A DNA stretch of 33,306 nucleotides, from positions 1 through 33,306 of IMG/VR virus record IMGVR_UViG_3300025141_000409; one strand, 5' to 3'. This DNA is from a virus. Shown here piece after piece: positions 1-8,845 of this stretch. The translations under genes were made by a program, and so were the position numbers. The notes beneath the pieces are model-generated. The model saw nothing but the letters and a program-made list of their open reading frames with translations, was not told the origin of the DNA and made no database searches. Position 1 is the first letter of the stretch. Each line of letters begins with the position of its first letter.

Positions 1-1249
1 ACATTACACGATTAGTTTCTGACCAATGTGTTTTTCCAAGTGTAACCGTTTTAGCATATAGATATGCATATTTTAAAGTCTTTAAATAATCTTCTACATC
101 TTTATGATTATGTGGAAATGTTTCAACCAAACAACATAACTCATAACTTTCTAAACTTTGTTCTAAACAAGGATTACCACCAGCTACTCTATGGTCTTTT
201 CTATCCCTACCATTTTTCATTCTTGAATAATCTCTCATATTGGATAACCAAGCAAATCCTGGTTCTCCGTTATCATTAATTCTTTTTGAAGCCTCTGTAT
301 AATCCATTCCAAGTTCTGCAAATATAGAATTGTTTGATGTCCAACCATATTCTTCTCTATCTGGATTCTTTTTATAATTCTTTAAATTAAGATATTCATC
401 TGATGTTGGATCACCAAATACAATTTCTGCGGTTCTTCTGACATTACCAGCAACAACACATTTACCAATCAAATTCATAATATCTACAATTGTTGTTATT
501 GTAATTGGTTCACTTACATTTTTATCTAATACTTCTCTGATATATTCATGAACTTCTTCCAATGGTTTATAACCACTTGATACACCACCAAATCCTTTGA
601 TTGGTGCTCCTTCAGGTCTTATTTCTCTATAATCAAAAACAACTGGTGATATTCCAAGAAAATAACTTTCCAATAATCTTTTAACTGATTCAACCCAACC
701 TTCTCTTGTATCTGGTATAACATAAGTTTCTACATCCCTATCATAATTTGGTCCTTTAATGATAAGTTGTTCAGCACCTTTTGTATCAAATCCAACACCA
801 ACACCAACCATACTTGCATCCATTAAAAAACAAAATGGTTTGGATAAATCTTCTTTTAAATTATTAGTTGATACAAATGCACAATTATTTAGAGCAGCAT
901 ACAATCCTCTTTCTTCTGTAAGTAATGTTCCCATTGACCATAATCCTCTACCGGGTGGTAAAAATTTCATATAAAAAATTCGACTATACATCTCTTGTGC
1001 TGACCGTTGTGCTTGCCATGCATTCCAACCTAAATCATATCTTTCAATATGTTTCTTTTGCATGTTGTAAGTTCCTTCAACTACTCGTTGAACAGTCTCC
1101 CACCACATTTCATTTTTTCCATCTTCTTTAAGTCTTGAGTAAGTTCTCATATAGACTAATTCCCCCAAGCCGTTAAATCCGAATGGTGGTCTTTTTCTTT
1201 TATAACCATCTATAAAATTATCTGATAATTTGAAGGGTTTGTAATCCAT
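1..1249 (-). CDS. nrdJ: adenosylcobalamin-dependent (class II) ribonucleoside-triphosphate reductase, C-terminus beyond window
   Basis: Reduces ribonucleotides to deoxyribonucleotides for phage DNA synthesis. The first 416 residues are visible; the 3' end lies beyond base 1. Visible landmarks match monomeric B12-dependent RTPR: an early LPPGRGLWSMGT segment (residues 97-108), NNC with Cys123 (first redox Cys), and NPCLEQSLESYELC with Cys361 (expected thiyl-radical Cys), Glu363 and Cys372. The 11-residue spacing of the last two Cys equals that of Cys408/Cys419 in the Lactobacillus enzyme (known family fact). The ATG at 1249 follows an AGAGGA ribosome site and lies 12 bases after the methyltransferase stop, so the genes are probably co-transcribed. 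No TGA interrupts the visible part. Class II enzymes are oxygen-indifferent but need host cobalamin. The C-terminal Cys pair that would take electrons from thioredoxin is outside the window. Confidence 0.93.
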   Translation of the reverse strand, partial: MDYKPFKLSDNFIDGYKRKRPPFGFNGLGELVYMRTYSRLKEDGKNEMWWETVQRVVEGTYNMQKKHIERYDLGWNAWQAQRSAQEMYSRIFYMKFLPPGRGLWSMGTLLTEERGLYAALNNCAFVSTNNLKEDLSKPFCFLMDASMVGVGVGFDTKGAEQLIIKGPNYDRDVETYVIPDTREGWVESVKRLLESYFLGISPVVFDYREIRPEGAPIKGFGGVSSGYKPLEEVHEYIREVLDKNVSEPITITTIVDIMNLIGKCVVAGNVRRTAEIVFGDPTSDEYLNLKNYKKNPDREEYGWTSNNSIFAELGMDYTEASKRINDNGEPGFAWLSNMRDYSRMKNGRDRKDHRVAGGNPCLEQSLESYELCCLVETFPHNHKDVEDYLKTLKYAYLYAKTVTLGKTHWSETNRVM

Positions 1250-2418: not shown

Positions 2419-3777
2419 TTATTCTTCTCCCATCAAATCCTCATATTTATTCTTTAACATTCTTTTCATAACCTCAGTTCCACTCTTCATTTTTTGAGTT
2501 TGCTGTTTTCCATCAACAGTGGAACTCTCGTATATTTCAACTGCTCCTGTGTTAGTATTTACTTTCGCGGGGAAAGTCAAACCATCAGGACCAAATCTAT
2601 TTTTAATTACATGAAATCTACCTGTATTTGCAATCTTGTCTTCTACTTTTCTACTCAATGACAACACAAAATCCGCTGTCATAACTTTTTGATATGATTC
2701 GGCAACTTTTTGAGCCTCAATAACTTCCTCATCAAGTGCACTCCTATTAGCTTGTGAAGCAGTCCATATTGGAACTTCAAACTCACCAGCGAGTCCTCTT
2801 AAATCTTCATAGATATTTCCAAGTGCGTGTCTTACTTCTGAACCACCTCTTGTATCTCTCAATATATCTCCATAATCTACAATGACCATATCAAATTTCT
2901 TACCCAATATCTTAAGTTGTTGTAAGTGAGCAGATAATGTATGAACTGATGCTGTCTTAGTTGGAAAATACTTCACTACCAATTCACCCTTAATATCTTC
3001 AATTTTAGTTTTCACTTCATCTTTATGATACTTTAAATTCTGATTAGCTACACCTGTAAATACCGAATCATATCTCAAACCAACATAAGCTTCATTTAAT
3101 TCTAATGTATAGTGAATCACATTTGTACCTTTTTTCATAGCTCCACCACCAAGAGCACATAATATCCAAGTTTTACCAATACCTGCTGGTGCCACAATCA
3201 CACCCAATTCACCAGCAGCTAAACCACCTTGAGTTAAATCATTTATCACATCCCATGGCGTTTCAACTGTAGTACGAGCCATTTCAGAATATCTTACCTC
3301 AATATCTTCGATATATTCATGTCCTATATTTCTTTCCGTACCAGCCTTCATAGCATTGTCTATAATATTCTTTATCTGATCATAGTCACCTTTATTCTCT
3401 AATATCTCAACTGATTGTATGATAGCATTTTTTAATGTTTGATTCTTAAAAAAGTCAACAACCTTATCTTGAACGAATTCCAAATCAGGTGCTTCTAAAT
3501 ATCTGTATATCTCTTTAAGAGTTTCAACTACAGTTGTCTTTAACACATCATTCTGAATTTCATTTACTTTTACTTTAAAAACATCAAGTGTTATGGGTTT
3601 CTTATATTCAGTAAAATACTGTTTACATTGTTTTACAATCCATTTTAAACTATCGTTATCATAATGACTTTCATCTAATATATCAATAATCTGTTCAATA
3701 AAATTAGGTTTTGTCATTAAACAGACAACCGATTTTATTTGAAAATTATGTCCAAACTCTTGTAATCTATCAGTCAT
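2419..3777 (-). CDS. 41: replicative DnaB-type helicase (T4 gp41-like)
   Basis: Hexameric 5'-3' helicase that unwinds DNA at the phage fork. It is 452 residues, near T4 gp41 length. The N-terminal 150 residues are helical and match the DnaB-type N-domain. A RecA-like core follows: Walker A APAGIGKT (196-203), Walker B MVIVDYGDIL (297-306), then a segment with WTASQANRSA that fits the DnaB motif carrying the nucleotide-sensing Gln and Arg. The acidic/basic C-terminal tail (about 420-452) is the likely contact for primase or loader. The ATG overlaps the exonuclease stop by 8 bases. It lies in the gp32-uvsX-exonuclease-helicase replication cluster. No primase or helicase loader is seen in the window. 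Confidence 0.93.
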   Translation of the reverse strand: MTDRLQEFGHNFQIKSVVCLMTKPNFIEQIIDILDESHYDNDSLKWIVKQCKQYFTEYKKPITLDVFKVKVNEIQNDVLKTTVVETLKEIYRYLEAPDLEFVQDKVVDFFKNQTLKNAIIQSVEILENKGDYDQIKNIIDNAMKAGTERNIGHEYIEDIEVRYSEMARTTVETPWDVINDLTQGGLAAGELGVIVAPAGIGKTWILCALGGGAMKKGTNVIHYTLELNEAYVGLRYDSVFTGVANQNLKYHKDEVKTKIEDIKGELVVKYFPTKTASVHTLSAHLQQLKILGKKFDMVIVDYGDILRDTRGGSEVRHALGNIYEDLRGLAGEFEVPIWTASQANRSALDEEVIEAQKVAESYQKVMTADFVLSLSRKVEDKIANTGRFHVIKNRFGPDGLTFPAKVNTNTGAVEIYESSTVDGKQQTQKMKSGTEVMKRMLKNKYEDLMGEE

Positions 3778-4828
3778 TTAATCCTTTAAATCTGTCTAAT
3801 CTTACAAATTCTTTTATCCAACTTCCAAAATCAGGAACTTGTGAATAGAGTTTATCTTTTAAAAACATTGTTTGTAATTTATATTTAATCAATTGTGGAA
3901 TATCTTTATTAACAGCTCCTTGTATTTTAAGTTTTACATTATTTGGTATGTCCACGTTTTGTAACTGCATTAATAAATAATTCCTCTTTACTAAGTTACT
4001 ACTTTTTTTTATATTTTCCAAGAGTTTTATTTTAGAATCTAAGTTTTCTATAAATTCTAATAAATCTCTTACATCAAATTTTTCCATAGACGAAATTTTC
4101 GGGCAGAATTTTTTCAAGGTTTTTAGTCCTGCACCTTTAATTCCGCCTATATTATCTGATTTATCGCCATCCAATATTCTATAGGTTAACATATTGCATG
4201 AAGGTATGCCATATTCTTCGAATACACTTTCTTCATCATATAATTTCTTTTTTGTTGGACTCCAAACATTTACCCTATCATCTACCAATTGTAGAAAGTC
4301 TTTATCCGTAGACATTAAAACTATCTTATTATCTTTAAGGATTTGTTGTGATATATAAGCCATTGTATCATCAGCTTCTATACCATCTACACAAATTAAA
4401 GTCAAAGGAAGTTGTTCAAGATAATCAACCAATCTACCGAGTTGCAATCTCATTGATTCTTCTTCGTTAGCGGGAGCTATTCCCCAATCTACATTTCTAT
4501 TTAATCGTTGTTTTACCTTACGATTTTCTTTATATTGGGGATATAACTTTCTTCTTCTTTTACTACCATCTTTTCCATCAAAGACAATGATGCATCTTGA
4601 AGGTTTTAACATATCTATTGTATATCTAATAGATTTTAGGAATCCTGTTAAACCACCAATATGTACACCATCATCATTAATTGAGGGATTAACGCTAAAA
4701 GCTCTAATAAAGGTATTTAAACCATCAACAATCAAAACTTTATCATTTAGTCTTAAAGTTTTTGGTTTCTCTTGTACATTCTCAAGGAATGAGTTGTATT
4801 GTTCTTTTACCTTATCATTAGAGTTCAT
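3770..4828 (-). CDS. rnh: 5'-3' exonuclease of the FEN family (T4 RNase H-like)
   Basis: Structure-specific 5' nuclease that in T4 removes RNA primers from Okazaki fragments. It is 352 residues. Metal-binding acids appear in the family order: Asp35 in LIVDGLNTF, Asp84 in IVFDGKDG, Glu151/Asp153/Asp154 in DGIEADDTMAYI, Asp175/Asp177 in STDKDF, and Asp220/222/225 in ILDGDKSDNIGGIKG. The last runs into the helix-3-turn-helix DNA-binding element (about 226-240). A basic stretch after Asp84 (KRRRKLYPQYKENR) fits the helical arch. The start overlaps the uvsX stop by 11 bases. The gene ends in TGA, showing that TGA is an ordinary stop in this genome. There is no polymerase domain. Confidence 0.93.
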   Translation of the reverse strand: MNSNDKVKEQYNSFLENVQEKPKTLRLNDKVLIVDGLNTFIRAFSVNPSINDDGVHIGGLTGFLKSIRYTIDMLKPSRCIIVFDGKDGSKRRRKLYPQYKENRKVKQRLNRNVDWGIAPANEEESMRLQLGRLVDYLEQLPLTLICVDGIEADDTMAYISQQILKDNKIVLMSTDKDFLQLVDDRVNVWSPTKKKLYDEESVFEEYGIPSCNMLTYRILDGDKSDNIGGIKGAGLKTLKKFCPKISSMEKFDVRDLLEFIENLDSKIKLLENIKKSSNLVKRNYLLMQLQNVDIPNNVKLKIQGAVNKDIPQLIKYKLQTMFLKDKLYSQVPDFGSWIKEFVRLDRFKGLND

Positions 4829-6975: not shown

Positions 6976-7143
6976 TTAATTATTTGGAAATTCTTCCTCG
7001 ATATATTCTCTTATTTTTTGTCCAAGTTTTTTATCATCATCAATGTCTTCAATTATTGAAACAATATGTTTAAGTGTTCTCTGATAATAACTACTTTCAG
7101 CAATCGTTCTTCCCAATTGATCTTTATATTGTTCTTTATCCAT
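6976..7143 (-). CDS. small protein of 55 residues, unknown
   Basis: A short frame (begins MDKEQYKDQLGRTIAESSY, ends IEEEFPNN) that is charged and probably mostly helical, with no Cys and no membrane segment. Its ATG overlaps the thioredoxin stop by 8 bases, the same geometry as the junction before the thioredoxin, so it belongs to the redox operon and is probably translated by coupling. It is the last gene before the gp32 leader. No family recognised. Confidence 0.65.
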   Translation of the reverse strand: MDKEQYKDQLGRTIAESSYYQRTLKHIVSIIEDIDDDKKLGQKIREYIEEEFPNN

Positions 7144-7480
7144 TTTGTTCCTCTGAAATTAATCCTTCGAGAAAATACTTAAGAGTTTCTTCATTTAGAG
7201 CTCCTAAAGTTGAATTTGATTTACCACTTTTAAAAATTGTGGTTACTGTAGGAACACTCCTAACATTAAATAAACCTGCAATTTCAGGTTCTTCTTCAAT
7301 ATTTACTTTGTATAAATTTATTTTATCTTCATATTCTGGTGTTACTTTATCGAGCACCTGCTCAAACATTCTACAAGGTCCTCACCAAGTTGCATAAAAA
7401 TCTATAAAGATAGGTTTACCTATAAGGTTTTTACCTTCATTATAAATTTTCATAAGTTCTTCTTTTGTTAAATTATTCAT
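7136..7480 (-). CDS. thioredoxin with in-frame TGA at the first active-site Cys (probable selenoprotein)
   Basis: Reading TGA through, the frame gives a 114-residue thioredoxin: N-terminal helix, strand PIFIDFYATW, active site W-TGA-G-P-C (TGA at 7384-7382, codon 33; resolving Cys at codon 36), then VRSVPTVTTIF with the cis-Pro loop, and a C-terminal helix. The only departure from a normal WCGPC thioredoxin is TGA for the first Cys. The ATG at 7480 overlaps the upstream stop by 8 bases and the stop at 7136 overlaps the next start by 8 bases, so the reading frame is framed tightly on both sides. A hairpin follows the TGA (separate entry). I infer selenocysteine. The alternatives are a pseudogene, a base error, or a truncated 77-residue product from the ATG at 7369. 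Selenocysteine insertion would need SelA/B/C/D from the host or elsewhere in the phage. Likely role: electron donor to RNR. Confidence 0.8.
7350..7365 (-). promoter_or_regulatory. SECIS-like hairpin downstream of in-frame TGA
   Basis: On the minus strand TTGAGC-AGGT-GCTCGA forms a 6-bp stem (one G-U) with an AGGU loop. The stem begins 16 nt and the loop 22 nt after the TGA. Bacterial selenocysteine insertion elements lie just after UGA, with the apical loop roughly 16-37 nt downstream and a G in the first two loop positions; the E. coli fdhF loop has a similar GCAGGU core (established knowledge). The stem is encoded by GAG CAG GTG CTC, four consecutive G/C-ending codons in a genome that nearly always uses A/T-ending ones. 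That suggests selection on the RNA rather than the protein. Confidence 0.7.
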
Positions 7481-7886
7481 CACAATTTTTATCATGTTCA
7501 CAATCACAATGACATCCACAATGTTTTTTCCATTTATCGATTGGACATTCAGCTATAGCATAATGAACTTTAACATTCATGAAACAACCACAATGTGTAC
7601 ATCTACCATCTTTTTTACCTGTGTCGGGATTAGTTTCATCGTATTTAAGATAAGGACAACCTTTACAAATTTCCCATCTTCGTTCAGCTTCTTCTTGTGG
7701 AGCTATTACTTGAGAACCTTTTATCCAAGCTTTTAATGTCTTCCAGTGATCTGTAGCTATATTTCGAATCATCTGAGATGCTGGAGGAAGTTTTTGTTCT
7801 CCCTCTAACATCTCTTCAGTTTTATCAATACATTTTAATTCTTCTTCAGTAGCTTCTCTATCAACCGTTGGTTTTGGTCTTATCAC
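7473..7886 (-). CDS. Cys-rich zinc-ribbon-like protein
   Basis: 137 residues. The N-terminal half is charged and helical. The C-terminal half has paired Cys motifs: CKGC (CPY follows), CTHCGC, CPIDKW, then a dense tail HCGCHCDCEHDKNCDE. The first four pairs look like a treble-clef or zinc-ribbon fold often seen in small phage proteins with the CxxCP...RCxxCGC...CPxxKW pattern. The tail could bind extra metal. It lies between the glutaredoxin-like gene (start abutting at 7886) and the thioredoxin (8-base overlap). That context suggests a thiol- or metal-linked job, but no function is established. Confidence 0.75.
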   Translation of the reverse strand: MIRPKPTVDREATEEELKCIDKTEEMLEGEQKLPPASQMIRNIATDHWKTLKAWIKGSQVIAPQEEAERRWEICKGCPYLKYDETNPDTGKKDGRCTHCGCFMNVKVHYAIAECPIDKWKKHCGCHCDCEHDKNCDE

Positions 7887-8845
7887 TACTTCCTACCTTT
7901 AGCTCTTTTCTTCTTTGGTGGTTTTTTACTTGCAGGTGGTGCGGGAGTTTTTCTCGGTAAAGTAGATCGAGCAGGTAATTTAGTTTGTGATTTATTTAAT
8001 CTTTTGTTTTCCCATTCAGTATCATCAACAACTTTAATTAATTTTCCACTGTTATTTCTTACATAATACTGTTGTTTAAGTGATTTAACATATTCAGACT
8101 CAGCATATACTTCAACTTTTTGTCCATTTTCTACAACATAATAATATTTTAAATTAAGATTTTTTTGATGTGTTACATTACCACCTATATTAGCTGACGG
8201 TGCACCAGTTGGTGGTTGTCCTCTATTTTTAAATCTTTGAACTATCACATCAGATGATATAAGATTTGGCAAATGAGAATTTTCCCCTGCCCATACGTCA
8301 TATTGCTCTTTCCATTTATCTATTTCTTCGTCAGTTGAATTTGGATTTGGAGGAGTTGGTGGTAAAGTTTTTGGTCTTGGCATTTTTAATATATCATCAA
8401 CAGTTCTAATGTTTGGTAACTTTTTATTTTTTTTCGCCCATTCTTCATATTCTTTTTTCCATTTTTCAACTTCTTCATCAGGCGCGTTCATCAATGGTGG
8501 TCTTGGAGGAGGTCCTGTTGGTCTTGGTGGTTGTGGTATTTCTTCACCATTTATCCACTTTAATAAAATATCTTTTTCTCTATAACCACAAACTTGATTT
8601 CCTGTTTCGGCATTAATGAACCATGGTGTACCACATTGTGCTTTATATTTATCTTTTAATTCTTTGTTTAAAGTTGCATTATCTTTATCAGCTAAATCTA
8701 ATCTTAATATATCATGACCTTCTTTATTAAGTTCATCAACAATTGGATCTACTTTTTTACAAAAACCACACCCTACTGAATAAAAGTAATATAAGGGTGA
8801 TAATTTTTCTTCTTTGGTCGTTTCTTTTGAATCTGTCATAACCAT
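7886..8845 (-). CDS. glutaredoxin/thioredoxin-domain protein with internal repeats and basic tail
   Basis: 319 residues. The N-terminal domain (about 15-100) is thioredoxin-like: strand PLYYFYSVG, redox motif CGFC (Cys26/Cys29), and a cis-Pro loop CGTPWF (71-76). A Pro-rich middle follows with two copies of a roughly 38-residue unit (about 115-152 and 165-202) sharing DEE(V/I)(E/D)KWK...W(A)...LPN. The C-terminal region has YYVV/YYVR segments and ends in a Lys/Pro-rich basic tail. No signal peptide or membrane segment is seen. It starts at an ATG 5 nt after AGGAGA; a second ATG is two codons on. It leads the redox cluster. The C-terminal extension is unusual for a dithiol reductase and suggests tethering to nucleic acid or a protein partner (inference). 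Confidence 0.8.
   Translation of the reverse strand: MVMTDSKETTKEEKLSPLYYFYSVGCGFCKKVDPIVDELNKEGHDILRLDLADKDNATLNKELKDKYKAQCGTPWFINAETGNQVCGYREKDILLKWINGEEIPQPPRPTGPPPRPPLMNAPDEEVEKWKKEYEEWAKKNKKLPNIRTVDDILKMPRPKTLPPTPPNPNSTDEEIDKWKEQYDVWAGENSHLPNLISSDVIVQRFKNRGQPPTGAPSANIGGNVTHQKNLNLKYYYVVENGQKVEVYAESEYVKSLKQQYYVRNNSGKLIKVVDDTEWENKRLNKSQTKLPARSTLPRKTPAPPASKKPPKKKRAKGRK

Follow-up and report, generated by a model that had tools for sequence, protein, structure and literature searches.

A thioredoxin gene carried by a group of apparently marine T4-like phages has an in-frame TGA, followed by a SECIS-like RNA hairpin, at the codon for the nucleophilic active-site Cys, and the product is probably a phage selenoprotein decoded with host SelB. 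We assign this reading a probability of about 0.94; Sec insertion itself and the dependence on SelB are inferred. The gene was found in a 33,306-nucleotide IMG/VR record (IMGVR_UViG_3300025141_000409), referred to here in its entirety as the window. The marine origin is inferred from the series of contig names and from relatedness to Marinimicrobia.

The window encodes a thioredoxin with an in-frame TGA

The initial annotation described a complete thioredoxin frame with TGA in place of the first active-site Cys and proposed a probable selenoprotein. The observation was confirmed: the 114-codon frame has TGA as codon 33 and reads ...FIDFYATW-U-GPCRMF.... The claimed 8-base overlaps with both neighbours are real, and the exonuclease gene does end in TGA, as claimed. 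The interpretation was also supported, although the annotation did not include the hairpin, the tRNA-Sec in a relative, or the second selenoprotein family, which are the strongest evidence.

Pfam Thioredoxin (PF00085) covered both sides of the TGA, with a score of 65.1 bits with one TGA inside and 73.5 bits when Cys was put in for the unknown residue. The W-[CU]-G-P-C motif and the cis-Pro region (S-V-P-T) are present. An AlphaFold2 model had a thioredoxin fold with pLDDT 92.7, and its best PDB match was spinach thioredoxin m (TM 0.82). The window belongs to a T4-like myovirus: gp23-type capsid, sheath, UvsX and gp32 were identified (PHROGs 138, 23, 97, 1192), and the capsid protein was 51% identical to that of an uncultured huge phage, 50% to that of a Microcystis phage, and 47% to those of Flavobacterium phages.

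Table 1. Coordinates of features in the window and in related contigs.
Feature	Position	Strand	Remarks
Thioredoxin gene, predicted selenoprotein	7136..7480	-	ATG to TAA; active site U33-G-P-C36
In-frame UGA (codon 33)	7382..7384	-	Plus strand reads TCA; position of the nucleophilic Cys
SECIS-like hairpin	7350..7365	-	UUGAGC-AGGU-GCUCGA; 6 bp including one G-U; loop starts 22 nt after the UGA
Upstream neighbour	7473..7886	-	Cys-rich protein; PHROG 13558, weak DUF6171; overlap with thioredoxin start at 7473-7480
Downstream neighbour	6976..7143	-	55-aa protein of unknown function; overlap with thioredoxin end at 7136-7143
Class II (B12-dependent) ribonucleotide reductase	2..1249	-	Cut off by the record end; PF17975 and PF21995, PHROG 367
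Exonuclease gene	3770-4828		Ends in TGA
Second thioredoxin-like protein	7886-8845		Y-S-V-G-C-G-F-C; long Pro- and Lys-rich tail; two genes from the Sec-thioredoxin
tRNA-Sec of contig G001	L050:1501-1595 (G001:103633-103723)		RF01852, 69.4 bits (cut-off 47)
tmRNA of contig G001	L052:1578-1923		Tag GNEYQYMAVA; next to a tRNA-Arg(UCU)
Trypsin-like protease, locus L143	revcomp 16788		
Trypsin-like protease, locus L147	10123		

The TGA is conserved and the downstream frame is under purifying selection

To determine whether the TGA is shared by related genes, we performed a homology search, which revealed 11 full-length relatives at 69-93% identity. All of them have TGA at this codon. A pattern search for W-TGA-G-P-C-[KR]-M in 2.9 million viral contigs gave 28 contigs, of which 27 carry thioredoxins of this family and one is a chance match. 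Together with the window these represent 23 distinct genes, each open before and after the TGA. In close pairs, pN/pS was 0.28 before and 0.41 after the TGA, and about 0.1-0.14 in the five codons following it. These findings indicate that the residues past the TGA are translated and selected.

The same pattern gave 10 hits in a genome collection, about half of which are chance matches. Neomarinimicrobiota genomes encode a thioredoxin-like protein with a signal-peptide-like start and W-TGA-G-P-C-K-M, apparently a host selenoprotein; two of these genomes have tRNA-Sec. Thioredoxins with W-TGA-G-P-C were also present in a Chlorobiota and a Planctomycetota genome, in which tRNA-Sec did not pass the cut-off.

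A SECIS-like hairpin accompanies the TGA

The stretch around codons 7 to 10 after the TGA folds into a hairpin with a 4-7 bp stem and a G-rich loop of 3-4 nt in 22 of the 23 genes; the remaining gene (L031) has one mismatch inside its stem. In 19 genes (type A) the stem is (UU)GAGC-AGGU-GCUC(AA) or a close variant. In the other four (type B) it is UUUAGUA-GUG-UACUAGA, which is unrelated in sequence and one base shorter in the loop, but lies in the same place. One outer pair changes from U-A to C-G, a compensatory change, and to U-G. The loops (AGGU, GGUC, AGUU, GUG, GUA) and the 22-nt spacing fit the bSECIS model (PMC13188914), which specifies a 3-9 nt loop, a 4-16 bp stem, G in the first two loop positions, and 16-37 nt from UGA to loop.

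In this 31% GC genome, the hairpin imposes rare codons. GC3 was 0.82 at the hairpin codons and 0.15 in the rest of the same genes; Glu was GAG in 16 of 16 and Gln was CAG in 18 of 18, against about 10% elsewhere. We next compared hairpin energy with that of sequences resampled synonymously using the codon use of the family. The 18-nt stretch of the window folded at -6.8 kcal/mol, and 0 of 2000 resamplings folded as well. The p value was <=0.0015 for all 19 type-A sequences and 0.04-0.05 for the four type-B sequences. However, the upper stem alone (-2.9 to -7.9 kcal/mol) does not reach the bSECIS limit of -7.5 kcal/mol in most members, and longer stretches (-10 to -12 kcal/mol) partly adopt other folds. 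In isolation, the 55-nt stretch of the window folds slightly better into a structure that pairs the UGA itself, which a ribosome sitting on the UGA would probably block.

An alignment search revealed two homologues of the same clade, L155 and L157 (58% and 55% identity), with TGT (Cys) at this codon. Both use other codons downstream and have no hairpin (0.0 kcal/mol). The hairpin goes with the UGA and not with the protein.

A related phage contig encodes tRNA-Sec

We searched 15 records carrying the gene for components of Sec decoding. The longest, a 113,475-base contig (G001, IMGVR_UViG_3300030099_006395), also encodes tRNA-Sec, with a UCA anticodon assigned by ARAGORN and a long acceptor stem. 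The acceptor stem, the discriminator G and an encoded CCA look intact. The tRNA-Sec was absent from 22 other related fragments and from the relatives that share its neighbouring CobT-like gene; because it was found in only one record of the group, it is not a general phage trait. Neither tRNA-Sec nor selB was found in the window, which is a 33-kb fragment, and SelB was not found in any of the 15 records. SelA, SelB and SelD are then inferred to come from the host, although of these only SelB was searched for.

A trypsin-like protease in the same phage group also has TGA at a conserved Cys

To identify further selenoprotein genes, we scanned the window and its relatives for in-frame TGAs. Most candidates were antisense or shadow frames, and after masking only the thioredoxin and a trypsin-like protease with a dockerin domain survived. 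C-terminal TGA extensions at two loci (L140 and L146) were attributed, tentatively, to overlap with the next gene. The protease has TGA in S-W-G-Y-G-U-A, where trypsins have a disulfide Cys (probably Cys220 in chymotrypsin numbering). Of 26 informative viral loci, 12 have TGA and 14 have TGT. All TGA forms have a GUAC-type stem after the TGA with compensatory changes (C-G to U-A, G-C to A-U), and 45 of 45 core pairs are kept in 9 distinct sequences; the TGT forms keep 45 of 55. The separation is less clean than for thioredoxin, because four distinct Cys forms (L235, L243, L249, L257) still keep the five core pairs, mostly as A-U and G-U. L235 lies in G001 and would fit a recent switch. The protease loop starts 15-16 nt after the UGA, at the edge of the bSECIS range. 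A tree of the protease needs about 7 Sec/Cys changes; however, it is poorly resolved and does not cluster the label beyond shuffles, so the number of switches is not firm.

Host evidence points to Marinimicrobia

The closest cellular relative of the phage protease was found in a Marinimicrobia genome (G216), with 71% identity over 246 residues, on a contig with MsrA and a nitroreductase; it is therefore probably chromosomal. The best match in a 247-genome sample of the phylum of a Chlorobiota record (G019) was 42%. The phage tRNA-Sec was closest to Marinimicrobia tRNA-Secs (79% and 78%), but this evidence is weak because other viral tRNA-Secs reach 76%. In the Marinimicrobia phylum, 166 of 245 genomes passed the SelB cut-off, although G216 does not appear among the listed matches over the cut-off. 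These findings support Marinimicrobia as host but do not prove it. One protease-bearing relative lies on contig IMGVR_UViG_2716884846_000003, whose name looks like an IMG genome rather than a metagenome. It is more likely than not that a clade of marine T4-like phages of Marinimicrobia carries a small selenoproteome of its own, comprising the thioredoxin and a secreted trypsin-like protease that has switched repeatedly between Sec and Cys, and that at least one member brings its own tRNA-Sec to raise Sec decoding during infection.

Alternative explanations

Programmed readthrough, in which the hairpin stimulates insertion of an ordinary near-cognate amino acid (Trp, Arg, Cys) and yields some full-length protein and a 32-residue truncated one, is very unlikely. 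A hairpin downstream of a stop codon can probably stimulate readthrough, and the fold alone does not prove SelB binding. However, the position is the catalytic Cys in all homologues, in-clade relatives have exactly Cys there without the hairpin, a second family uses UGA at another conserved Cys, the loop G and the spacing fit bSECIS, and a tRNA-Sec is linked. It is also very unlikely that there are two separate products, a 32-residue peptide and a protein restarted at ATG codon 38, neither of them a redox enzyme. An ATG does lie five codons after the TGA and is conserved in the family, but a start there would leave G34-P35-C36 outside any product, whereas W-U-G-P-C is the most conserved part.

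In favour of genome-wide reassignment of UGA, UGA is rare as a terminator in the window (TAA 23, TAG 5 and TGA 1 in 29 genes checked). Reassignment is refuted by the absence of in-frame TGA from the other checked genes, while TGG is used throughout; moreover, a reading as Trp would kill the active site, and the hairpin and its absence from the Cys forms would be unexplained. A single-base change makes TGA from TGT or TGC, but sequencing error, nonsense mutation or gene decay is likewise refuted: 23 distinct genes share the TGA across many assemblies, with purifying selection after it, which excludes an assembly or read error without recourse to the reads.

Predicted function and relation to known systems

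In the proposed mechanism, host SelB bound to the hairpin just downstream of the UGA delivers Sec-tRNA-Sec to the ribosome during infection. The first active-site Cys of thioredoxin attacks the substrate disulfide, and Sec at this position should be a better nucleophile at neutral pH; the product would be a fast disulfide reductase, recycled by a host thioredoxin reductase. Class II ribonucleotide reductases take electrons from thioredoxin and one lies in the same gene cluster, so support of DNA precursor synthesis is inferred to be the likeliest role.

Bacterial Sec-containing thioredoxin with the UxxC motif is known (PMC13188914) and was also found in GOS metagenomes (PMC2398784). It shares the thioredoxin fold, Sec in place of the first Cys of CGPC, and an in-frame UGA followed by a hairpin; the present genes are encoded by T4-like phages rather than bacteria and form their own phage clade (51-93% identity to the window's protein). 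Phage thioredoxins with Cys (PHROG 22) are carried by T4-like and other phages, and the two nearest examples lack the SECIS-like hairpin. A Sec trypsin-like serine protease family with Sec at a conserved Cys was reported from GOS reads, without an organism in the text consulted (PMC2398784); these phages or their host are a possible source. The two selenoproteome surveys examined (PMC2398784, PMC13188914) do not mention phages, and we found no report of a phage selenoprotein in a literature search that excluded preprints and most subscription journals, so an earlier report cannot be excluded.

Selenocysteine use is costly and has been treated as a cellular trait. Phage selenoproteins that keep Sec over long divergence imply that Sec gives enough catalytic advantage to be kept under phage selection, and tie infection to selenium supply and to hosts with SelB. 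The Sec/Cys pairs in one phage group are a natural experiment on why Sec is kept or lost. Standard gene callers cut such genes at the UGA, so more may be hidden in viral databases.

Phage-borne tRNA-Sec genes are known from Basilisk-like Bacillus phages (PMC6145125, in which the significance is called unknown) and from huge wastewater phages (PMC10747093), with no selenoprotein gene named in the text consulted. In G001, the tRNA and a selenoprotein gene lie in one phage genome, which gives this otherwise unexplained phage gene a client. About 48 viral contigs carry a tRNA-SeC call by ARAGORN; some of these lie in long tRNA arrays and may serve as UGA suppressors instead of Sec decoding.
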